Below, one piece after another: positions 30,157-42,480 of a DNA stretch of 42,480 nucleotides. The position numbers and the translations under genes are program-made. This DNA comes from Acidobacteriota bacterium. GTDB taxonomy: Bacteria; Acidobacteriota; Polarisedimenticolia; Gp22-AA2. The stretch is taken from positions 16,399 through 58,878 of the forward strand of contig QHXZ01000086.1 of assembly GCA_003223165.1 (NCBI GenBank). Reading direction: 5' to 3'. The notes under the pieces are model-generated. The model did not search any database. It saw only the letters and a list, made by a program, of their open reading frames with translations, and was not told the origin of the DNA. How positions within the stretch are numbered: position 1 is the first letter of the stretch; each line of letters starts with the position of its first letter.

Positions 30157-30841
30157 ATGACGGCCATCTCGGCGCGGCTACGGGACCTCGTGGCCCGGGC
30201 GGGCCGGCTCGTCGCGCTCACGGGAGCGGGGATCTCGGCCGAGTCGGGCGTGCCGACCTTCCGCGGGCAGGACGGCCTCTGGGAGCGGGAGCGGGTCGAG
30301 GAGCTCGCCACGCCGGAAGGGTTCGCGCGCGACCCCCGGCGGGTCTGGGCCTGGTACGATGCCCGCCGCGTGCAGATCGCCGCCTGCGATCGCGGGCGTG
30401 ATCACGCAGAACGTCGACGGCCTGCACGGCGCCGCCGGCAGCCGCCGGGTGCTGGCGCTGCACGGCGACATTTTCCGGGTGCGCTGCACGCGCGAAGGCA
30501 CGTCGCGCGAGGATCGGCGGGCGCCGCTGCCGGAGGTCCCGCCCCGTTGCGCCTGCGGCGCCTTGCTGCGGCCCGACGTCGTCTGGTTCGGGGAGATGCT
30601 GCCGGGGCCGGACATGGACGCGGCCGCGGCGGCGGCCAGGCGCGCCGAGCTTTTCCTGTCCATCGGGATCTCGGCGCTGGTGTATCCTGCCGCGGGGCTG
30701 GCGGAGGTGGCGCGCGACGGCGGCGCCTATCTCGCCGAGATCAACATCGAGCCGACTCCACTCTCGCCTCTGGTCCACGAGGTGATTCAGGGGCCGGCGG
30801 CGCGGGTGCTGCCCGATCTCCTGGGGATCTCGATCGCATAG
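30157..30841 (+). pseudogene. Sir2-family NAD-dependent deacylase with internal deletion/frameshift
   Basis: The N-terminal part has the NAD motif [16 protein letters not shown] (residues 23-38) and [19 protein letters not shown], and runs to RRVQIAAC. At about 30388-30392 the frame changes by +1 and resumes at [16 protein letters not shown], through [13 protein letters not shown] and the C-terminal NAD segment [12 protein letters not shown]. Relatives have about 20 residues (EPNPGHRAL-type) between these parts. The zinc-binding region retains CTREG and RCACG, fewer Cys than the usual four. The ATG at 30157 has AGGAGA eight bases upstream. The gene is 10 bp upstream of larC. As written it encodes no functional deacylase; misassembly is possible. 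Confidence 0.82.
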
Positions 30842-32120: not shown

Positions 32121-32420
32121 ATGGTCTACGACAAAGTGAAGGCGGGGCGGATGCTCCGGGTGGTGCTCGACGTGAGCGAGGGGGCGCTGGACCAGGCCGG
32201 CGGCCCGACCGGGTCGCCCAGCCTGCGCATCCCGGCGCTCGAGAGCGAGAAGATCATGCGCACGCTGGCCGCCAAGGGAGACGTGGACGCGATGTACCAC
32301 GAGTACCTTCGCGTCCTGCAGGCGAACCCGGCGGTGGGCGAGACGTTGCACCGCCACCACCGCAAGAGCTTCGAGTCGGAATTCTACCGTTTCGCGTCGA
32401 TCTACTGGGAGCGCGACTGA
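32121..32420 (+). CDS. small conserved-looking protein of unknown function
   Basis: I do not recognise this 99-residue soluble protein. It is predicted to be largely helical, with the segment SEKIMRTLAAKGDVDAMYHEYLRVLQ followed by HRHHRKSFESEFYRFASIYWERD. Two clustered His/Arg stretches could bind metal or nucleic acid, but no known motif is evident. The ATG at 32121 follows GAGGGGG. The stop overlaps the metG start (TGATG), so it is translationally coupled to methionyl-tRNA synthetase. Codon use matches its neighbours. Confidence 0.75.
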   Translation: MVYDKVKAGRMLRVVLDVSEGALDQAGGPTGSPSLRIPALESEKIMRTLAAKGDVDAMYHEYLRVLQANPAVGETLHRHHRKSFESEFYRFASIYWERD

Positions 32421-34417
32421 TGGCGCGGAAGTTCTACCTGACCACCCCCATCTACTACGTCAACGACACGCCGCACATCGGCCACACCTACACGACCGTG
32501 GTGGCCGACGTGATCGCCCGGTTCCGCCGCATGACGGGGCAGGACGTCTACTTCCTGACCGGCACGGACGAGCACGGGCAGAAGATCGAGCTCGCGGCGC
32601 GGGCGAAGGGGATGGCGCCGATCGCCCTGGCGAACCAGGTCGTAGAGCGCTTCCGCTCCCTCTGGACCACCCTCGGCATCAGCAACGACGACTTCATCCG
32701 CACCACCGAGGAACGGCATCGGCGCGGGGTCGAGAAGCTGTACCAGAAGATCCAGGCCAAGGGGGACATCTACAAGGACGCCTACAAGGGCTGGTACTGC
32801 ACCTCCTGCGAGTCGTTCTACCCCGAAAGCCAGATCGTCGACGGCCGCTGCCCGGACCAGGGGCACAAGGTCGACTGGACCGAGGAGGAGTCGTACTTCT
32901 TCCGCCTGTCGAAGTACCAGGAGCCGCTGCTGCGCCTCTACAAGGAGCATCCCGACTTCGTCTTCCCGGAGACGCGCCGCAACGAGGTGGTCGCCTTCGT
33001 GCAGGCGGGGCTGAAGGACCTGTCGATCAGCCGCAGCAGCTTCTCGTGGGGCATCCCGCTGCCGGGCGACCCGAAGCACGTCCTGTACGTCTGGTTCGAC
33101 GCGCTGAGCAACTATATGACGGCGCTCGGCTACGGCTCGGACCGCAAGCTCTATTCGCGCTTCTGGCCGGCCGACCTCCACCTGGTCGGCAAGGACATCC
33201 TGCGCTTCCATGCCGTCTACTGGCCCGCCTTCCTGCTGTCGGCCGATGAAGCGCTGCCGAAGCGGGTGGTGGCCCACGGCTGGTGGCTGCGCGACTCGGC
33301 CAAGATCTCCAAGTCGCGCGGCGGGGTGGTCGATCCGCTGCCGCTCATCGAGGCCTTCGGGGTCGACGCGCTGCGCTATTTCCTGCTGCGCGAGATGGTC
33401 TTCGGTCAGGACGCGAACTACTCGGACGAGGCGTTCATCGAGCGGGTCAACACCGACCTGGCCAACGACCTCGGCAACCTGATCAGCCGCACGCTGAAGA
33501 TGATCGAGGACTACTGCGGCGGCAAGGTGCCGAGGACCGACCCGCGTTTCCGCGGCGACGAGCCGCTCAAGACGGCGGCCCGTGACGCGTGGGCCGCCTA
33601 CGTGAAGGACTTCGAAGGGCTCGATTTCAGCTCGGGGCTGTCGCGCGTCTCCGACTACGTCGGCGCCCTGAACCGCTTCATCGTGCAAAACGAGCCGTGG
33701 AAACTGGCGCAGGACGCGGGGCGCCGCTGGGCCCTCGATTCGGTGCTCTACACCGTCGCCGAGGGGTTGCGCATCGTCGCCATCCTGCTCGCTCCGGTCA
33801 TCCCGCGCTCGGCCGGAGAGATCTGGAAGCGCCTTGGGCTCACGGGAGACGTCACGGCCTCCAGCCTGGAGCACTTCCGCTGGGGCGAGCTGAAGCCCGG
33901 GCGCGTCATCGCGCGCGGCGAGTCCCTCTTCCCGAGAATCGACAAGGCGGCGTACCTGCGCGACGCCACGGCCGCCAAGGAGCCCGGCATGGATCCCCAG
34001 AAACCCGCTCCGACCGCCCCGTCCCAGCCGCCCGACCCGGATCCTGCCGCCCCGGCCCCCGCCGCCCCGGCCCTCGCCGCCGCGGGCGCGGCGGAGGTCG
34101 GCATCGACGAGTTCGCCCGCATCGAATTGCGCACCGCGAAGGTGCTGGCCGCCGAGAAGGTGGAGGGGGCGGACAAGCTGCTCAAGCTGACGGTGGACGT
34201 CGGCGACGGCACGCGCACCATCGTGGCCGGCATCGCCACGCGCTACGCGCCCGAGGCGTTGGTCGGTAAGACCATCATCGTGGTCGCCAACCTCAAGCCG
34301 GCGAAGCTCCGCGGCATCGTGTCGCAAGGGATGCTCCTGGCCGCCTCCGACGCCACGGGCACCCCTTACATCCTGACGACCGAGGAGCCCGTCCCGGGCG
34401 GCTGGCGCGTGAAGTAG
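32420..34417 (+). CDS. metG: methionyl-tRNA synthetase with C-terminal tRNA-binding domain
   Basis: This 665-residue class I synthetase charges tRNA-Met. The HIGH motif is at 19-22 (PHIGHTYTT) and the KMSKS loop is KISKS at 295-299. The zinc knob shows CTSC (127-130) and CPDQGH (144-149). The anticodon-binding helical domain contains FIVQNEPWKLAQD. A Pro/Ala-rich linker at about 530-562 leads to an EMAP/Trbp111-type OB-fold domain (RIELRTAKVLAAEKVEGADK through KLRGIVSQGMLLA). It appears complete. The start overlaps the upstream small gene (TGATG). tatD follows after 18 bp. Confidence 0.97.
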   Translation: MARKFYLTTPIYYVNDTPHIGHTYTTVVADVIARFRRMTGQDVYFLTGTDEHGQKIELAARAKGMAPIALANQVVERFRSLWTTLGISNDDFIRTTEERHRRGVEKLYQKIQAKGDIYKDAYKGWYCTSCESFYPESQIVDGRCPDQGHKVDWTEEESYFFRLSKYQEPLLRLYKEHPDFVFPETRRNEVVAFVQAGLKDLSISRSSFSWGIPLPGDPKHVLYVWFDALSNYMTALGYGSDRKLYSRFWPADLHLVGKDILRFHAVYWPAFLLSADEALPKRVVAHGWWLRDSAKISKSRGGVVDPLPLIEAFGVDALRYFLLREMVFGQDANYSDEAFIERVNTDLANDLGNLISRTLKMIEDYCGGKVPRTDPRFRGDEPLKTAARDAWAAYVKDFEGLDFSSGLSRVSDYVGALNRFIVQNEPWKLAQDAGRRWALDSVLYTVAEGLRIVAILLAPVIPRSAGEIWKRLGLTGDVTASSLEHFRWGELKPGRVIARGESLFPRIDKAAYLRDATAAKEPGMDPQKPAPTAPSQPPDPDPAAPAPAAPALAAAGAAEVGIDEFARIELRTAKVLAAEKVEGADKLLKLTVDVGDGTRTIVAGIATRYAPEALVGKTIIVVANLKPAKLRGIVSQGMLLAASDATGTPYILTTEEPVPGGWRVK

Positions 34418-34435
34418 CGGCCCGGGCCCGCGCGC

Positions 34436-35215
34436 ATGCCGGTGCACAGCGACAGCCACGCGCACCTCACGATGGAGCCGTTCGACGCCGACCGCGAGGC
34501 GGTGATCGAGCGCGCCCGCGAGGCGGGCCTCCGGCACGTGGTGACCGTCTCCTCGTACCTGGGGGACGCCGCGCGCTGCGCCGATCTGGCTTCGCGGCAC
34601 GACTTCATTCACTTCACCGCCGGATTGCACCCTCACGAGGCCAGCGCCTGGACTCCGGAGGTGGCGCGGGACCTCCGCGAGGCCGCCCGCCGGCCCAAGG
34701 GAGTGGCGATCGGCGAGATCGGGCTCGACTACCACTACGACCGCTCGCCGCGCGAGGCGCAGCGATCCGTGTTCCGCGAGCAGATCGCCCTGGCGCGCGA
34801 CCTGGGGCTGCCGATCGTCATCCACACGCGCGAGGCCTGGCCGGACACCCTCGCCATCCTGCGCGAGGAGCGGGCCGAATCCATCGGCGGCGTCTTCCAC
34901 TGCTTCTCTGGCGGGCCCGAGGAGGCCCGGCGCTGCCTCGATCTCGGCTTCTACCTGTCGTTCGCCGGACCGGTCACCTTCAAGAACGCCGGCGGCGTGG
35001 CCGAGGCGGCGGCCTACGCGCCGCTCGGACGGATCCTGACCGAGACCGACGCCCCCTTCCTCACCCCGCACCCGCACCGGGGCGCGCGCAACGAGCCGGC
35101 CCGCGTCGTGCTGGTCGCCGCGCGGGTCGCCGCCCTGAAGGGAATCGCCCCCGAAGCGGTCGGGGAGGCGGCCACGCGGAACCTCGAGACCGTCTTCCGG
35201 CTGCCGGTCTCCTGA
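34436..35215 (+). CDS. tatD: TatD-family metal-dependent hydrolase (DNase)
   Basis: This 259-residue TIM-barrel hydrolase is of the TatD type, implicated in DNA end processing and repair. Metal ligands are visible as DSHAHL at the N-terminus, GEIGLDYHY, VIHTREAW and FHCFSGG, with the late Asp in TETDAPFLTPHPHRG. Length is standard. The metG-tatD order is common in bacteria. The ATG at 34436 has no strong ribosome site but aligns with the family start. Confidence 0.95.
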   Translation: MPVHSDSHAHLTMEPFDADREAVIERAREAGLRHVVTVSSYLGDAARCADLASRHDFIHFTAGLHPHEASAWTPEVARDLREAARRPKGVAIGEIGLDYHYDRSPREAQRSVFREQIALARDLGLPIVIHTREAWPDTLAILREERAESIGGVFHCFSGGPEEARRCLDLGFYLSFAGPVTFKNAGGVAEAAAYAPLGRILTETDAPFLTPHPHRGARNEPARVVLVAARVAALKGIAPEAVGEAATRNLETVFRLPVS

Positions 35216-35284
35216 GGGACGGGTGCCGTTCCGCCTTGGCCGCGGTTGACGGTGTCCTCGCGGGGGCGTAGCAACGGATTGTTC

Positions 35285-35422
35285 ATGCACGGCGCGGGAC
35301 TGATGCTGCCGATCACGACCGCCTTCGGCGTCTTCGTCCCCGAAGACGAGGCCGACGAGTCGACAGAGGTCCTCCAGGACGCGCGGCGGGCTCTCGAGAG
35401 CGAGAATGCGGGCAACGCCTGA
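35285..35422 (+). CDS. possible 45-residue acidic small protein
   Basis: A short open frame between tatD and the convergent ketosynthase-like gene encodes MHGAGLMLPITTAFGVF followed by an acidic, helical tail (PEDEADES...ALESENAGNA). Third codon positions are almost all G or C, as in real genes here. A weak TTGACG-17-TAGCAA pair (35246-35274) would start transcription just before the ATG. No ribosome site is seen and no homologue comes to mind. It may be a real small protein or chance. Confidence 0.35.
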   Translation: MHGAGLMLPITTAFGVFVPEDEADESTEVLQDARRALESENAGNA

Positions 35423-35443
35423 CGTCCGGTGCGGCGCGACCTC

Positions 35444-36670
35444 TCAGGCCGGCGGACAGGTCAGGACGAGGCTCTGGCAGGTGCCGCCGGTCCCCAGCGC
35501 GTTGACCAGGACCGAGGCGAGCCGGCCGGGCCGGGCCGCGTGCCGGACGCAGTCGAGGCCCAGCGACGGATCGGGGTCGACGAGGCCGGCGACCGGCGGC
35601 ACGAGGCCGTCGCGCAGGGCGATGGCCGCGACCAGCGCGGCGCAAGCGGAAGCGGCGCCCGATTCCCCCACCGCCCCCTTGACCGAGGTGACCGGCAACC
35701 GCGCGAGATCCGGTCCCAGGGCCTCGCGCAGGGTGCGAGCCTCGAAGGCGTCGAGCCGCGGCGAGGCGTTGGCGCTCGCGACCACGCAGCCGATGGCCCC
35801 CGGCGCGAGGGCGGCGCGGGCGAGGGCCTGCCGCAGGGCGCCCGCCGCCGCCCCGATCTCGGACGGCCAGCCGTGCGCCGGCCCCGGAGCGTGGGCGGCC
35901 GCCGACCCGGCGATCACCGCCCAGGGTCGCGCGCCGCGCCGGCGCGCCCGGCCCGCGTCTTCCAGCAGCAGCACGTAGCTCCCCTCCCCCGGCGCGAAGC
36001 CGTGGCGCCGCCGGTCGAAGGGGCCACGGAACGAGCCGGCCCCGCCCCGCGCCCTGATCCCCCAGCGCTCCCAGGCCGCCTCGATCGGCCCGGCGTGCGC
36101 GTCCACGCCCCCCGCCAGGACCGCTTCGGCGTGGCCCTCGCGCACCAGCGTGGCGGCCGTGGCGATCGCCGACAGGCCGGAGGCCTCCATGCGGCAGATC
36201 GTCAGGTTCGGGCCGCGCAAGCCTAGAAGGATCGAGCACTGCGCCGCGGGGGCGTTCTGCACCGTGAAGGGGAAGTCCATCGGCGAGACCGCCTCGGGGC
36301 CCTCCCGGAAGAGCGTGCTGAGGAAGCCGGCGAGCGGCGCCGTGCCGGCGCTCATGGTCCCGAGGACGACGCCGATCGCATCGCCCGCCGCGCCGGCGTA
36401 CCGGCCGCCGAGGGAGCCTCCGTCGAGACCGGCCGAAACGAGGGCTTCCGAGGCGGCCAGCGCCGCCATGCGCGAGGCCCGGTCGAGCCGGCGCCAGGAC
36501 TGCGCCGGGAACGGGCCGGGGCCGATCGGGTCGCGCACCGCGGCCGAGCAGCCGCCCGAGAGCGCGGGACGGCCGGCCAGCATCCCCTGGCGCAGAAGAT
36601 CGACCCCGAGGCCGAAGGGGCCGAGCGCCCCCGCGCCGGAGATCACGACGGCGCCGGAGGGATCCCTCAC
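35444..36670 (-). CDS. ketosynthase-fold chain-length-factor-like protein (non-catalytic KS)
   Basis: This 408-residue thiolase-fold protein of the FabF/KS type has lost all three catalytic residues. The Cys position reads RMEASGLSA (Glu162), the first His motif reads VVASANASPRLDAFE (Ser299 at the His position), and the second reads VKGAVGESGAAS (Glu336). Chain-length factors and KS-beta subunits of type II systems pair with an active KS and lack the Cys in the same way, usually with Gln. The GTG start (36668-36670) overlaps the ArsC-type stop (GTGA), ending a four-gene minus-strand operon whose second gene is a catalytic KS. A KS/CLF heterodimer is the natural reading. Confidence 0.85.
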   Translation of the reverse strand: MRDPSGAVVISGAGALGPFGLGVDLLRQGMLAGRPALSGGCSAAVRDPIGPGPFPAQSWRRLDRASRMAALAASEALVSAGLDGGSLGGRYAGAAGDAIGVVLGTMSAGTAPLAGFLSTLFREGPEAVSPMDFPFTVQNAPAAQCSILLGLRGPNLTICRMEASGLSAIATAATLVREGHAEAVLAGGVDAHAGPIEAAWERWGIRARGGAGSFRGPFDRRRHGFAPGEGSYVLLLEDAGRARRRGARPWAVIAGSAAAHAPGPAHGWPSEIGAAAGALRQALARAALAPGAIGCVVASANASPRLDAFEARTLREALGPDLARLPVTSVKGAVGESGAASACAALVAAIALRDGLVPPVAGLVDPDPSLGLDCVRHAARPGRLASVLVNALGTGGTCQSLVLTCPPA

Positions 36671-37143
36671 GACCGTCTCGCGCCCCGCGGCGCGCCAGGC
36701 GGCCGGTCGGGCCGGACCCTGGCAATCAGATCCTGGATCTGCCCCTCCAGCCGCTCGCGCACCTCACGGAACGCCCGCCGTACCGCGTCCGGCCCGCCCT
36801 CCACGAACGAGGGGTCGGGAGTGGACCAGTGCTCGTACGGGTAGGCGCCGATCCAGCGCGGGCAGCTCGAGGCCGCCGCATCGCACAGGGTGATGACCAG
36901 GTCGAAGGGAGGCGGCACGTCGTCCAGCCCCTTCGAATACTGTCTCGAGATGTCGATGCCCCGTTCCTCCATGACGGCGATGGCATGACGGTTCACTCCC
37001 ACGGGGATCGTCCCCGCGCTGTGCGCCTCGATGCGCCCCTCGCCCAGATGCGTCGCCAGCCCCTCGGCCATCTGGCTGCGGGCCGAGTTGCCGGTGCAGA
37101 CGAAGAGCACCTTGAAGGGAGGGTCCTGCGCCGCAACGCTCAT
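36667..37143 (-). CDS. arsC: ArsC-type (thioredoxin-coupled) LMW protein-tyrosine-phosphatase-like protein
   Basis: This 158-residue protein has the LMW phosphatase P-loop VCTGNSARSQ (Cys16 to Arg22), then HSAGTIPVG, VMEERGIDIS and the redox helix TLCDAAASSC (Cys87, Cys94). Their spacing matches the Cys82/Cys89 shuttle of S. aureus-type arsenate reductase. The acid/product loop is HWSTPDP. By family it reduces arsenate to arsenite with thioredoxin. Its position is odd: it is sandwiched between the catalytic KS (ATGA overlap) and the CLF-like gene (GTGA overlap), with no arsenite pump or ArsR nearby. A role in lipid or polyketide synthesis, or simple operon hitch-hiking, are both open. Confidence 0.9.
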   Translation of the reverse strand: MSVAAQDPPFKVLFVCTGNSARSQMAEGLATHLGEGRIEAHSAGTIPVGVNRHAIAVMEERGIDISRQYSKGLDDVPPPFDLVITLCDAAASSCPRWIGAYPYEHWSTPDPSFVEGGPDAVRRAFREVRERLEGQIQDLIARVRPDRPPGAPRGARRS

Positions 37144-38363
37144 GCCTGGGGATCCTTCAGGACGAGGACGCCGTTGTTGCCACCGAAGGCCAGGGAGCTC
37201 GAAAGGGCGACGCCCACGCTCAAGCGGCGGGCCGCGCCGGGGACGTAGTCCAGGTCGCACTCCGGGTCGTGGGTGCGAAGCCCGGCGGTGGGCGGCACGA
37301 TACCCTCGCGGATCGACAGGGCGGCGGCGAACGCCTCGATCGCCCCGGCGGCGCCCAGGCAGTGTCCGACCATCCCCTTGATCGACACCACCGGGACGCG
37401 GTCGGCGCGCGCGCCGAGGACCGACCTGAGGGCGCGCGTCTCGGCCCGGTCGTTCTGCGCGGTGCCGGTGCCGTGGGCGTTGACGTGGTCCACCCGCGCA
37501 GCGTCGATCCCCGCCGCCCGCAGCGCCGCGCGCGCCGCGCGCGCCATGCCCTCACCGTCGGGGTCGGGGGCCGTCGCGTGGTGCGCGTCGGCCGCCATGC
37601 CGCATCCGGCGACCTCGGCGTAGACGCGCGCCCCGCGCGCGCGCGCCGCCTCGAGGTCCTCGAGGACCAGCACGGCGGCGCACTCGCCCAGCGACAGCCC
37701 GCGGCGCTCGCGATCGAACGGGCGGCAGGGATCGGGATCGACCAGCCGCAGCGCGTTGAACCCGGCATAGGTCGTGCGTGACAGCGTCTCGACGCCCCCG
37801 GCCAGCACCACCGACTGTTCCGCATGGGCGATGCGCGCGGCACCGAGCCCGATGGCGAGCGTGGCGGACGAGCAGGCCGTCAGGAGCGTCTGCGCCTCAC
37901 CGCGGAACCCCAGGTGCGAGGCGATGAGGTCGGCGGTCGAAGCCGGGAAGAAGCCGAGCGCGGCGGACGGCCGCGGCACAGCACCCCGCAACGACGCGGC
38001 GAGGAACGCCTCTCCCTCCAGAAGGGCCCCACCCCCCCCCAGAAGGACGGCGGCCCGCTCGCGCTCGAGACGCCGCGCGTCGAGCCCGGCGTCCGCCAGC
38101 GCCTCGAGCGCCGCCCGCAGGCCAAGAAGATCGGCCCGCGACGCGCGCCGGCGCTCCTTCTCCTGCAGCACGCCTCGCGGCAGCAGATCCCCGTCGGGTA
38201 TCCGGATCTGGGCCGCCGTCTTCGTGCGTTGCTCCGCGACGTCGAAGAGCGTGACCGGCCCGATCCCCACCCGGCCCGCGACCAGCCCCTCCCAGGTCTC
38301 GCGCGCGCTCGCGCCGATCGCCGAGATGACGCCCGCGCCGGTCATCGCGACCCGTCGCCTCAC
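37140..38363 (-). CDS. beta-ketoacyl-ACP synthase (FabF-like, catalytic KS)
   Basis: This 407-residue ketosynthase elongates ACP-bound acyl chains. The full catalytic triad is present: TACSSATLA (Cys164), VNAHGTGT (His297) and SIKGMVGHCLGAAG (His334). GLSLGECAAVLVLED and the C-terminal LAFGGNNGVLVL are typical. The start is GTG (38361-38363) overlapping the dehydratase stop (GTGA). Its stop overlaps the ArsC-type start (ATGA). With the CLF-like subunit two genes on, it forms a probable heterodimer for a type II polyene or fatty-acid product. The coding strand carries a run of nine G at 38032-38040 (LLGGGGALLEG), a possible slippage site. Confidence 0.94.
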   Translation of the reverse strand: MRRRVAMTGAGVISAIGASARETWEGLVAGRVGIGPVTLFDVAEQRTKTAAQIRIPDGDLLPRGVLQEKERRRASRADLLGLRAALEALADAGLDARRLERERAAVLLGGGGALLEGEAFLAASLRGAVPRPSAALGFFPASTADLIASHLGFRGEAQTLLTACSSATLAIGLGAARIAHAEQSVVLAGGVETLSRTTYAGFNALRLVDPDPCRPFDRERRGLSLGECAAVLVLEDLEAARARGARVYAEVAGCGMAADAHHATAPDPDGEGMARAARAALRAAGIDAARVDHVNAHGTGTAQNDRAETRALRSVLGARADRVPVVSIKGMVGHCLGAAGAIEAFAAALSIREGIVPPTAGLRTHDPECDLDYVPGAARRLSVGVALSSSLAFGGNNGVLVLKDPQA

Positions 38364-38785
38364 GTCGGGCCGCCACGCGGCCCGGCGCCGCGTGCTCCTC
38401 CGCCGGAAGCCTCCGGCTCGACCATCCCGCCGATGGCGATGCTGAACTCCCCCTCGGCGACGATCACGCCCTCGACGTCCGCCTGGCTGCGCACGCGCAC
38501 CAGATCGCCGAAACGCTCTGTGACGCGGGCGCTGATCCGCAACCGGTCCCCCGGGCCGACAGCCCGAAGGAGGCGGGCTTCGTGAATGGCGACGAGCATC
38601 CCGGGGACGCCGGCCGCGTGCCGCGGGCCGGCCAGGGGCAGGGCGGCCTGTGCCATGGCCTCGAAGACCAGCGCCTCCGGCGCGCGCTCTCCGGCGGTGA
38701 CCGCCTTGATCACGACGCGGCGATCGAGCGGGCCGTCGACGACCCGATCGAGAAAGCGGAAGGGATGGGCGTGCTCGCCGTTCAT
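38360..38785 (-). CDS. hotdog-fold 3-hydroxyacyl-ACP dehydratase-like protein (FabZ/ApeI-like), catalytic loop apparently missing
   Basis: This 141-residue hotdog protein starts with HPFRFLDRVVDG, comparable to the FabZ PFLLVDRV segment, and has the central helix VFEAMAQAALPLAG (FabZ EAMAQ) and a normal C-terminal sheet (RISARVTERFGDLVRVRSQA). Between VTAGE (about residue 33) and APEALVFEAMAQ the FabZ family has about 12 more residues, including the catalytic HFPG histidine. Here they are absent (near 38680-38690), so catalysis is doubtful unless the DNA is misassembled. It is the first gene of the minus-strand operon. The ATG is at 38783-38785. The ACP gene diverges from it. Confidence 0.78.
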   Translation of the reverse strand: MNGEHAHPFRFLDRVVDGPLDRRVVIKAVTAGERAPEALVFEAMAQAALPLAGPRHAAGVPGMLVAIHEARLLRAVGPGDRLRISARVTERFGDLVRVRSQADVEGVIVAEGEFSIAIGGMVEPEASGGGARGAGPRGGPT

Positions 38786-38810
38786 GCTCGGGGCCCCCGT
38801 TCGGGAAATG

Positions 38811-38864
38811 AGTGTAAGCGAGCCGTTCCGGTCCTTGCAACCCGCTCCGAATCTCTGGTATAAG
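38811..38864. promoter_or_regulatory. divergent promoter pair sharing a palindromic TTGCAA -35 box
   Basis: TTGCAA (38835-38840) is its own reverse complement. To the right, 18 bp away, lies TATAAG (38859-38864) with an extended TG element, driving the ACP gene. To the left, also 18 bp away, lies TACACT on the minus strand (38811-38816), driving the dehydratase-KS-ArsC-CLF operon. Both predicted transcripts have very short leaders. The symmetry would enforce balanced or mutually exclusive expression. Confidence 0.5.
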
Positions 38865-38876
38865 CGCACGGATCCT

Positions 38877-39164
38877 ATGCCCGGCAACCATCCGGCTCTC
38901 CGCAGCGAGCTCAAGCAGTTCATCGTGCGCCGCCTGCGTCTCGAGCAGGTCGATGCCGCGTCGATCGCCGACGACGCGCCCCTGGTCGGCGGCGGTCTCG
39001 ACCTCGACTCCATCGATCTGCTGGAGCTGGTGGTCGGGCTGGAGAGGGAGTACGGCATCAAGATCGCCGACGTGGCCGAGGGGCGCCGCGCGCTCGCGTC
39101 GGTCGAGAGCCTCGTCGAGTACGTTGCGGCCCGGCGCTCCGAGGCCGGGCGTCCCGAAGCCTGA
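38877..39164 (+). CDS. acyl carrier protein
   Basis: This 95-residue four-helix carrier has the phosphopantetheine site GLDLDSIDLLEL (Ser45), followed by VVGLEREYGIKIAD and a C-terminal helix. It would tether the growing chain for the KS/CLF and dehydratase encoded on the other strand. It is related to ACPs of secondary type II systems rather than the primary AcpP, which is usually shorter. The ATG at 38877 has no ribosome site and lies 12 nt after the -10 box, suggesting a nearly leaderless mRNA. Confidence 0.93.
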   Translation: MPGNHPALRSELKQFIVRRLRLEQVDAASIADDAPLVGGGLDLDSIDLLELVVGLEREYGIKIADVAEGRRALASVESLVEYVAARRSEAGRPEA

Positions 39165-39165
39165 G

Positions 39166-39340
39166 GTGGCCTCCTGCGGCGGCCGCCGCAAGATCCTCCT
39201 GATCTCCTCCTCGCATTGCCTGCCCGGCGGCGGCGTGGCCCGCGTCGAGCGCTACTGGACCTCGGCCTTGACGCTCGTGCACCTGCAGGCGCTGACGCCG
39301 CCCGGGTTCGCCTGCGAGCTCGCGTGTGGGGTGTCCCGCC
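39166..39340 (+). pseudogene. N-terminal remnant resembling a cobalamin-binding radical SAM protein
   Basis: A GTG one base after the ACP stop opens a frame beginning RRKILLISSSHCLPGG and then SALTLVHLQALTPPGF. This resembles the Rossmann-like B12-binding N-terminus of radical SAM enzymes (KILLI...LPPLGL..LAALTPPG). The similarity stops near 39330, where the convergent PHP gene begins. The frame runs on to 39465 in its antisense but makes no family sense there. It looks like the first 50-55 codons of a gene whose remainder was lost. The assignment rests on short motifs only. Confidence 0.35.
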
Positions 39341-40318
39341 TCAGAGGGCGGTGCGCGGGGACTCGGCGGCGTCGAGCGTGCCGATTTCGGCAGGCGCCGC
39401 CTCCAGGGAGCGCTCGAGCGATCGGCACACGAGGCCGGCCACGACGCGCTGGCGGGCCTCGTTGAGGAAGGTCAGGAGGGCGGGGACGCCGAGCACGGCC
39501 CCAGGCAGGAGCGCGGCGGCCGCGAGGTAGTTGACCGGGTTCATGCCGGCGCGTTCTGAGGGCAGGCGCATCTCGGCGTAGTAGCGTCCGATCGCCCGAT
39601 AGACCTGCGACAGCAAGGAGGGGAACCCGATCGGCCGCGTGTGGTAGGAGCAGTCGCCGCGCGCCACGCTGGCCAGCCAGGCCTGGGGTGTCGCGCCCGG
39701 GGCCTCGGAGAACGACGAGCCGGCGTGATCGGGCACGTGCGCGTCGCTCCCGCCCACCGCCGCCTTCTTCAGCCCGAGCGAGCGGGCATAGGCCAGCATC
39801 GCCTCCGTGGCCGCGGCGTGCGCCGGGGCGAGGGTGCTGTTGCCGGCCTCGAAGTGATCGAAGAGCGCCAGGATCGCTTCGACGTAGGCCTGAAGTGGAG
39901 TTTGGAAGCGGAAGCTGAGGAACGGGTGGTTGAGGACGTGGAGCAGCCCCCGCGACCGGAGGTACCCCACCAGCTCGTGCACGTTCGGCCGCAGGCGCTG
40001 CACCTCGCGGTGCGCCTCCTCGTCGAGGCCGAAGACGTTGACGTGCACCCATTGGCGCGTCTCCGGGAAGCGGGTCTCGACCTCCTCTCCGACGATCAGC
40101 CGCCCGGCGGCATCGGGCCGCGCCTCGAGCAGCCGCAACGCGCCCTCGATCGACTCGTGGTCGGTGATGGCGACGAAGTCCATGCCGGCGGCGCGCGCGC
40201 GCTCGAAGACCTCGACGGGATCCGAGTAGGAATCGCGCGCCCTCAAGACGCGCAGGTGCTTCCAGGCCGAGTAGCGCGTGTGCAGGTGCAGGTCGCAGCG
40301 CTGGGTCGTCTTGCTCAC
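39341..40318 (-). CDS. PHP-domain metal-dependent phosphoesterase-like protein
   Basis: This 325-residue protein has the four PHP motifs: CDLHLHTRYS (Asp9/His11/His13), FVAITDHES (Asp53/His54), a VLNHPF histidine in the middle and GGSDAHVPD near residue 200. PHP enzymes hydrolyse phosphoesters with two or three metals. The C-terminal part (about 270-300, YLAAAALLPGAVLGVPALL) is hydrophobic and may anchor it to the membrane. The start is GTG (40316-40318) with GGAGGA eight bases upstream. It lies between the ACP and acyl-ligase genes of the lipid cluster, so a cluster-related role is possible. Confidence 0.9.
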   Translation of the reverse strand: MSKTTQRCDLHLHTRYSAWKHLRVLRARDSYSDPVEVFERARAAGMDFVAITDHESIEGALRLLEARPDAAGRLIVGEEVETRFPETRQWVHVNVFGLDEEAHREVQRLRPNVHELVGYLRSRGLLHVLNHPFLSFRFQTPLQAYVEAILALFDHFEAGNSTLAPAHAAATEAMLAYARSLGLKKAAVGGSDAHVPDHAGSSFSEAPGATPQAWLASVARGDCSYHTRPIGFPSLLSQVYRAIGRYYAEMRLPSERAGMNPVNYLAAAALLPGAVLGVPALLTFLNEARQRVVAGLVCRSLERSLEAAPAEIGTLDAAESPRTAL

Positions 40319-40399
40319 GGCCGGTATCCTCCGCCAAGGCCGGCGGATGATACCACTCGGCCGGAGTTGCGGGCCTTCAGTTCACCGACCCCGCGCCAA

Positions 40400-40417
40400 T
40401 ATAATTCCCCTTATAAT
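40400..40417 (+). promoter_or_regulatory. tandem TATAAT boxes before the acyl ligase
   Basis: Two perfect TATAAT hexamers lie at 40400-40405 and 40412-40417. The second ends 8 nt before the ATG at 40426, exactly where a leaderless transcript would start. No ribosome site is present. The -35 regions are poor (TTCAGT at 40376-40381 for the first). Confidence 0.5.
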
Positions 40418-40425
40418 GCCGGGCC

Positions 40426-41970
40426 ATGTCCGGCCCGGGCACCAAGGCCCTCTACGAACATCTGATCGGCGTCCTCGCTTCCTCCCCGCGGCGCCCCGTG
40501 GCGCGGCTGCTGCCGGGGGGAGGGGCGCTCGATGTCGACTCGTTCGAGCGCCGGGTGGTCGGCGCGGAGCGCCGTCTGGTGCGGCTGGGGGGCGGGCCGG
40601 GGCGGCCCGCCGTGGCGCGGCCGGGCGCGGGCGACCTGGTCCTGCTGTCGGCGCGCAACCGCGATTCCTACCTCGTCGCCCTCGCGACCCTGTGGAAGCG
40701 AGGCCTCGTGCCCCTCCTGGCCGACGCCGACCTGTCGCGCGTGGAAATCGCCGATCTCGTGGCCACCTTCCGTCCCGCCGCCTGCCTGCTCGACCGGCGG
40801 GCCTTCCCGAACGGTGGATCGCCGGAGGACTTGGGAGAGGCCCTGCCGGGGCTGCACGCCTGGGTGCCGGGACCGCGCCCGGGCCGGCGCGCCGAGCCAT
40901 CGCCCTCCTCGGCGACGCTGGCCCGCGCCGCGATCGTCCGGCTGACGTCGGGCTCCACCGGACGGCCGCGCGGCGTCGCGGTGACGTCCGAGCAGCTGAT
41001 CGCCGACTCGCGGAATATCTGCGCCACGATGGGCCTCCAGCCGGGCGACACCCTGGTGGGAGCGATCCCCCTGGGGCACGCCTATGGCTTCGTGCACATC
41101 CTGATGGCGCTCGCCCTGCTGGGGTCACGGGTCGTCCTCCTCGAGCAACCGCTGCCGGCCCTGCTGTCCGAGGCGCTGTCGGGCCCGGGGCCGCTGGTGC
41201 TTCCGGGAACGCCGTACCTGTTCGACCTCCTGTTGCAGGCGGCGGGACGCCGTCGCTTCAAGGGCCTGCGCCTCTGCCTGTCGGCCGGCGCGCCGCTGCC
41301 GGAGAGGCTGTCGCGCGCTTTCAAGGAGCGCTTCGGCCTGCCGATACGAACGTTTTACGGCGCGAGCGAGTGCGGCGGGATCTGCTACGACCGTTCGCGC
41401 GACGGGATCCTCCCCGACGGCTGCGTCGGCACGCCGCTCGAGGGGGTCCAGGTCGGCGTGCGCCCCGAGCGCGGTCTCGAGGAGGGCGCGGGCCGCATCG
41501 TGGTGACCAGCCAGGCGGTCGCGCTCGGCTGCTTCCCGGAGGCGCCGGCGGGGGGCGATCCGGGGGACGGCGTTTTCGTGACCTCCGACCTCGGCCGGAT
41601 CGACGGCGACGGGCGCGTGCACCTCGCCGGCCGCATCGATCGCCTGATCAACGTCGGAGGGCGCAAGGTCAACCCGGCGGAGGTGGAAGCCGCGATCCGG
41701 CGCCTGCCGGGAGTGCAGGGCGTCGCGGTCTTCGGCGTGCCCGACAGGCACCGCGGCCAGGCGGTCTGCGCCTGCGTGGTCGCGACGAAGGGACTCACCC
41801 GGGAGGCTCTCCTGGCGGCCTGCCGCCAGCGCCTGGCTCCCTTCAAGATCCCGCGCCGGGTCGAGTTTGCCGGCCGCCTGCCGCTCACCGCGCGCGGCAA
41901 GACCGACCGGCGGGCCCTGGCCGCGCTGGTCAGCCCGCGCGCGGCGACGACGGCGAGCCGCCCGGCGTGA
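40426..41970 (+). CDS. AMP-dependent acyl-CoA/acyl-ACP synthetase
   Basis: This 514-residue ANL-superfamily ligase activates a carboxylic acid as acyl-AMP and transfers it to CoA or ACP. The P-loop LTSGSTGRPRGV is at 173-184. IPLGHAYGFVHILMA, FYGASECGG, VFVTSDLGRIDGDG and GRIDRLINVGGRKVNPAEVE follow, and PLTARGKTDRRAL carries the C-terminal catalytic lysine. In aryl-polyene clusters such an enzyme loads the aromatic starter onto ACP, which fits the neighbouring KS/CLF, ACP and dehydratase. The ATG is probably leaderless (see the tandem TATAAT). The 3' end overlaps the convergent acyltransferase gene by 41 bp. Confidence 0.92.
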   Translation: MSGPGTKALYEHLIGVLASSPRRPVARLLPGGGALDVDSFERRVVGAERRLVRLGGGPGRPAVARPGAGDLVLLSARNRDSYLVALATLWKRGLVPLLADADLSRVEIADLVATFRPAACLLDRRAFPNGGSPEDLGEALPGLHAWVPGPRPGRRAEPSPSSATLARAAIVRLTSGSTGRPRGVAVTSEQLIADSRNICATMGLQPGDTLVGAIPLGHAYGFVHILMALALLGSRVVLLEQPLPALLSEALSGPGPLVLPGTPYLFDLLLQAAGRRRFKGLRLCLSAGAPLPERLSRAFKERFGLPIRTFYGASECGGICYDRSRDGILPDGCVGTPLEGVQVGVRPERGLEEGAGRIVVTSQAVALGCFPEAPAGGDPGDGVFVTSDLGRIDGDGRVHLAGRIDRLINVGGRKVNPAEVEAAIRRLPGVQGVAVFGVPDRHRGQAVCACVVATKGLTREALLAACRQRLAPFKIPRRVEFAGRLPLTARGKTDRRALAALVSPRAATTASRPA

Positions 41971-42480
41971 CCTCCCAGACATCGTAGAAGTTGAACCACT
42001 GGGTCGGGTAGAGGCGCACCACGCGCTCGACGCGGCGCGCGAAGTCCATGAGCGCCGCGTCGATCGCCTCGGCGCCGGGGCCGACGGCCAGCGGTCCGTC
42101 GAGGTGCATGAGGTAGCGCGAGTGTCCCCGGATCGGCACGCAGACGAGAAGGAGCGGCGCGCCGCTCGCCTGCGCCAGGGCGAACGGCCCGGACGGCAGG
42201 TCGACCGGGGCGCCGAAGAGGGGGAGGCGCCGCGACTCCGCGCCGAACGACCGGTCCCCCTGCATGGTCACGATCTCCCCCCGACGCAGCGCCAAGAGCA
42301 GCTCGAGCCCGTTCCAGGCTGAGCCGCCCGCGGCCACCGTGCGCACGCACGGGTGGGCGCGCGCCCGGCGCGCGAGGGGCGCCGCATCGTGCTCCTCGGG
42401 CAGCAGGACGACGCTCACCGGCCGTCCGAGCAGGGACAGGCAGGCCAGGCCGACCTCCCAGCTTCCGAGGTGCAGCGTGA
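41930..42480 (-). CDS. LpxL/HtrB-type lipid acyltransferase, 5' end outside the window
   Basis: The C-terminal part of a membrane-associated acyltransferase is visible; the frame continues open to the right edge. The catalytic H(x4)E motif appears as TLHLGSWEVG near 42455-42478. It is followed by SLLGRPVSVVLLPEEHD, a NGLELLLALRRGEIVTMQGD segment typical of late lipid A acyltransferases, and YPTQWFNFYDVWE at the end. A GTG at 42416-42418 is not the true start, because the catalytic His lies upstream of it. Such acyltransferases are standard members of aryl-polyene clusters, where they are thought to attach the polyene to a lipid. Confidence 0.88.
   Translation of the reverse strand, partial: TLHLGSWEVGLACLSLLGRPVSVVLLPEEHDAAPLARRARAHPCVRTVAAGGSAWNGLELLLALRRGEIVTMQGDRSFGAESRRLPLFGAPVDLPSGPFALAQASGAPLLLVCVPIRGHSRYLMHLDGPLAVGPGAEAIDAALMDFARRVERVVRLYPTQWFNFYDVWEVTPGGSPSSPRAG

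Follow-up and report, generated by a model that had tools for sequence, protein, structure and literature searches.

A probable reduced, lineage-specific variant of the aryl-polyene-like type II gene clusters of Acidobacteriota

The right-hand end of the window, as we call the whole analysed stretch of 42,480 nucleotides of DNA from a soil acidobacterium, carries a gene island centred on a catalytic ketosynthase (KS) and a dead KS homologue of the CLF type. With somewhat better than even confidence we read this island as a reduced, lineage-specific variant of the aryl-polyene (APE)-like type II clusters of Acidobacteriota, working by the route proposed below; judged by its genes, its product is probably an ACP-derived lipid. 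APE clusters are among the most widespread kinds in Gram-negative bacteria, and in Acidobacteriota they occur in graded forms, from fuller ones with chorismatase, ketoreductase (KR), MMPL and LolA-like genes to the reduced form, which adds PHP, LMWP and B12-binding radical-SAM genes. Kinship of the island with APE clusters is supported, while membership of the canonical APE or dialkylresorcinol clusters is not.

Results

The housekeeping genes for MetG and TatD (32420 to 35215, plus strand), placed by gene calls, Pfam and synteny, form the left border of the island. A minus-strand block follows, comprising the genes for the CLF (35444 to 36670), an LMWP/ArsC-type protein (36667 to 37143), the KS (37140 to 38363, with a GTG start at 38363) and a hotdog protein (38360 to 38785); owing to overlaps of about 4 bp at every junction it was read as a single translationally coupled operon. 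Further to the right lie a stand-alone ACP gene (38877 to 39164, plus), a radical-SAM remnant (39166 to 39320, plus), a gene for a PHP-domain metallohydrolase (39341 to 40318, minus), an AMP-dependent acyl ligase gene (40426 to 41970, plus) and an LpxL-type acyltransferase gene (41930 to 42478, minus), the 5' end of which is missing at the contig end. This agrees with the first-pass annotation, made from the letters alone, which had described the six lipid-type genes as lying together on both strands, with an ArsC-type protein inside the KS/CLF operon (we found it there in all six genomes with the island) and a PHP protein and a radical-SAM-like remnant between the gene groups. The KS, LMWP, PHP and ligase genes have intact frames and normal codon usage. 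A small zinc-ribbon ORF found between TatD and CLF in the relatives is missing from the window (35216 to 35443), and a Sir2-type ORF farther left (30398 to 30841) has a called length of 147 aa where the relatives have 241 aa, possibly reflecting a wrong start or a truncation.

Because the window ends exactly where its contig (C174) ends, this assembly holds no sequence to the right of 42480 and the remainder of the locus was read from relatives. All genomes compared are incomplete assemblies, and that of the window (G000) is 85% complete. The island is kept in Acidobacteriota of the same family, completely in four genomes (G003, locus L052; G004, L056 and L174; G005, L050/L051; G006, L036, record QHXY01000177, "gp22 AA3") and partially in G002 (L054), with island proteins about 41-78% identical between the window and G002-G006. 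With five further genomes sharing it, a chance association is ruled out. The order in the relatives is MetG-TatD-small ORF, CLF-LMWP-KS-hotdog, ACP-GT2-radical-SAM and PHP, then ligase, LpxL, an ACT-domain (GcvR-like) gene and DUF309-SRPBCC. In G004 a gene for a 1395-aa subtilase-type protease is inserted between PHP and radical-SAM (L056, 3962-8149). The first-pass annotation had taken these genes for a left half only, with a ketoreductase and exporter possibly beyond 42480, and a search for MMPL exporter, FabG and LolA-like genes downstream had been proposed. This did not hold: in all four relatives readable past LpxL nothing APE-like follows, the ACT-domain gene comes next, and KR, MMPL, LolA and thioesterase genes were found neither there nor within the island of any relative examined. 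Hence the left-half interpretation is wrong.

The KS retains the Cys-His-Lys-His residues, as seen by residue check and family alignment. The CLF, recognised by Pfam ketoacyl-synt N and C domains, residues and tree, is catalytically dead, with the substitutions C164->E, H304->S, H341->E and F401->T (E. coli FabF numbering), and across its family alignment the active Cys is replaced by Glu, the first His by Ser or Gly and the second His by Glu. Phylogenetic analysis grouped the KS with ApeO and the KSs of other acidobacterial KS/CLF clusters (support 100/99), its sister being a KS of genome G245 that adjoins a PHP gene (99/96), and placed the CLF among other CLFs (100/99). A single clade of KS and FabF was rejected (p-AU 0.0002). 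The KS, about 65% identical between the window and the relatives, is thus ApeO-like by Pfam, residues and tree and does not cluster with primary FabF; its placement was a check named beforehand, and the outcome bears out the claim of a dedicated, APE-like type II locus with KS and CLF. Among 396 genomes of the phylum searched, this CLF type occurs in just six, all from one family; outside that family the next match scores 266 bits, versus at least 492 within. Of the CLFs with solved structures, chain C of PDB 9s5h/9s5i is the closest. The CLF frame is broken by an in-frame TGA in G006 and the protein diverges C-terminally in G004, which may represent assembly errors or decay. G003 (L111) and G005 (L113) also hold another, distinct KS/CLF cluster that includes ACP, KR, FabZ-like hotdog, extra KS and ABC-transporter genes, and its KS groups with chain B of 9s5h.

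Domain searches and comparison with the E. coli APE proteins identified the ACP as being of the PRK09184 (APE) type. It is 42-45% identical to the second E. coli APE ACP versus 27-28% to AcpP, and the PRK09184 model was reached by the G003 protein (70.4 of 70) and narrowly missed by that of the window (62.9). The same searches marked the AMP ligase as a candidate ACP loader, its match to E. coli ApeH being weak (24%; ligase and GT2 together span 24-27% against the E. coli APE proteins). The GT2 and LpxL proteins of the relatives each match one half of E. coli ApeJ, LpxL corresponding to the C-terminal half, a match that together with Pfam identified the window gene. The CX5R loop, the LC...CP cysteines and the DP loop of the LMWP/ArsC-type protein are intact. 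The PHP protein is CehA/McbA-like with a long C-terminal helical stretch, and its AlphaFold model (pLDDT 64.6) was too low in confidence for structure search. The hotdog protein, described earlier as a dehydratase, is indeed a FabZ-derived hotdog and its family is closer to FabZ than to ApeP. Its acidic residue (E42) is kept and the GHFPG histidine is missing, the same being true in six of six genomes; E. coli ApeP also lacks the GHFPG motif, which ApeI has. The AlphaFold model (pLDDT 75.7) matched FabZ folds and indicated no alternative function. Without the FabZ histidine and without a partner in the island, a working dehydratase appears doubtful.

Compared with the apeA-R cluster of E. coli CFT073 (PMC8253772), the island has a KS with a CLF, an APE-type ACP, an AMP-forming ligase, an LpxL-type acyltransferase and a FabZ-like hotdog, plus GT2 in the relatives. 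In contrast, it lacks LolB-like, second ACP, initiating KS (ApeR) and methyltransferase genes, there is no ApeQ-type ketoreductase in the island of any relative, the ApeI + ApeP dehydratase pair is represented by a single His-less hotdog, and no thioesterase or MMPL/LolA/LolB-like export set is found in the island. GT2 and LpxL are separate, whereas they are fused in ApeJ; PHP, LMWP and a B12-radical-SAM gene (full-length in the relatives) are added, and the genes occupy both strands. Since KR, two dehydratases, thioesterase and the RND/Lol export set are parts of the E. coli APE cluster (PMC8253772), the island, where these are absent, cannot be filed as a canonical one. By analogy, the island may operate like an APE front end.

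Closer kin were found within the phylum. The cluster of G024 (L107) comprises LpxL, dehydratase, methyltransferase, MMPL, KR, GT2, CLF, KS, ACP, ligase and deacetylase genes, that of G018 (L157) LpxL-KS-CLF, ligase, PHP, deacetylase, MMPL, aminotransferase IV, GT2 and ACP, and those of G378 (L176) and G245 (L172/L175, split over two contigs) LpxL, GT2, MMPL, LolA, KR, ACP, deacetylase and PHP together with the nearest KS; G245 also holds a radical-SAM gene at 35%. The KS/CLF clusters of G001 (L109) and G008 (L108) additionally carry a chorismatase. Hyg5-type enzymes of this kind point to an aryl starter, which by analogy suggests one in those two clusters. These loci contain the nearest KS kin, LpxL, ACP and CLF are present in most and PHP, GT2 and ligase in several, and the occurrence of PHP in four (G001, G018, G378, G245) indicates that it belongs to the gene set. 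Unlike the island, they have KR and/or MMPL and LolA-like genes, the dehydratase of G024 and G008 looks like a fused ApeI-ApeP pair, and no LMWP gene was found in them. Our best reading of the window cluster is a reduced branch within these acidobacterial KS/CLF loci, with LMWP as an addition.

In every relative, GT2 and a B12-binding radical-SAM gene separate ACP from PHP (cut short in G002, where the contig ends); only in the genome of the window are GT2 and most of radical-SAM missing. By synteny the former GT2 site lies at 39128 to 39168 (limits approximate). The 155-bp remnant at 39166 to 39320, recognised by homology, keeps about 50 codons from the 5' part of a gene of about 455 aa in the relatives and aligns with codons 6-53 of the intact gene at 73% identity, the homology ending sharply at 39320. 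Throughout the G000 assembly (85% complete) we found no second copy, only the remnant and paralogues at 23-33%. It is possible that the apparent deletions are assembly errors. Among four relatives the radical-SAM protein shows 86-87% identity, which implies strong constraint there, and it is more conserved than the KS between window and relatives. KS, FabZ-like, ACP and radical-SAM types co-occur in candidate ladderane clusters, as in the island. Nevertheless, a ladderane-type B12-radical-SAM model scored 79.8 bits on the relatives' gene versus a cut-off of 360, with BchE and HpnJ scoring higher, and compared with the ladderane candidate clusters of anammox bacteria (treated in PMC2649909 and PMC4790861), the island has no desaturases and carries PHP, LMWP and GT2 instead.

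Discussion

From the observed gene content, conservation, kinship, residue losses and deletions we infer every biochemical step of the following route. The AMP ligase would activate an aryl or fatty carboxylic acid as starter and load it onto the dedicated ACP, whereupon the KS and its dead CLF partner would elongate the bound starter with malonyl units. Any keto reduction and dehydration would be left to primary FabG and FabZ, invoked for want of a KR in the cluster and of the FabZ histidine in its hotdog. The LpxL-type acyltransferase would then move the chain onto a lipid acceptor, in the relatives GT2 and the B12-radical-SAM enzyme would add to or modify the anchor or chain, and PHP and LMWP would probably serve as phosphoesterases on a phosphorylated intermediate. 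The added phosphatase-type and radical-enzyme genes and the missing standard genes suggest a related but probably different membrane lipid, and the loss of GT2 and radical-SAM from the genome of the window probably means a simpler product or a pathway starting to decay. Counting against our main reading, an AMP ligase-ACP-GT2-B12-radical-SAM operon in two genomes from a different family within the order (f2; L088 9967-13856, L089 10004-13873) has no KS/CLF beside it within the 15-20 kb examined, so that the modules can be separate; this operon lies near PHP and a Tes-like gene.

The lack of KR, thioesterase, MMPL, LolA and a paired dehydratase leaves polyene formation uncertain. We tentatively entertain a KS/CLF pathway without dedicated keto-processing, leading to a non-polyene lipid or glycolipid that would be modified by the B12-radical-SAM enzyme and trimmed by a PHP/LMWP phosphatase pair, which would be a class not yet described in Acidobacteriota. 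Rather unlikely, in our estimate, is a pathway altogether in decay, to which the two deletions in the window, the CLF disruptions in G004 and G006 and the already inactive-looking hotdog would testify; the intact frames and normal codon usage of the window, and the constraint on radical-SAM in four other genomes, speak against it.

A canonical APE cluster, with KR, MMPL, LolA, thioesterase and ammonia lyase or chorismatase located to the right of 42480 or at another place in the genome, is improbable. The seven component types shared with E. coli APE favour it, as does a general MMPL gene elsewhere in G000, but the synteny past LpxL in four relatives largely refutes it, and the full-length chorismatase of G001/G008 is found neither in G000 nor in G003-G006, G002 giving a weak partial match only. 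The single MMPL gene of G000 was rejected as a displaced APE exporter; it has no APE neighbours, and such a gene occurs in 13 of 13 genomes searched, including cluster-free ones. Very improbable is an alternative primary fatty acid synthase operon holding housekeeping FabF, FabZ and ACP copies: the best PDB and NCBIfam matches of the KS are FabF-like, yet the joint clade with FabF was rejected, G000 has a separate FabF on contig C82, and the companion CLF is dead and, among the 396 phylum genomes, restricted to one family. A dialkylresorcinol/flexirubin or ladderane-type pathway, the former raised by the first-pass annotation, is scarcely credible despite the 9s5h/9s5i match of the CLF and the radical-SAM model hit, as domain searches found no DarA/DarB-type ring-forming domains, and no desaturases or ladderane-specific set, among the island genes, and the 79.8-bit score fell far under the cut-off.

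Membrane lipids of Acidobacteriota include unexplained ether and membrane-spanning forms. Since PHP occurs both in APE-like clusters and beside Tes-like genes, it offers a testable marker for the synthesis of unusual lipids in this phylum. In several acidobacterial families the PHP family adjoins or lies near tetraether-synthase-like (Tes) radical-SAM genes (L088, L089, L037, L159, L160, L161), and these neighbourhoods stand apart from any KS/CLF cluster.
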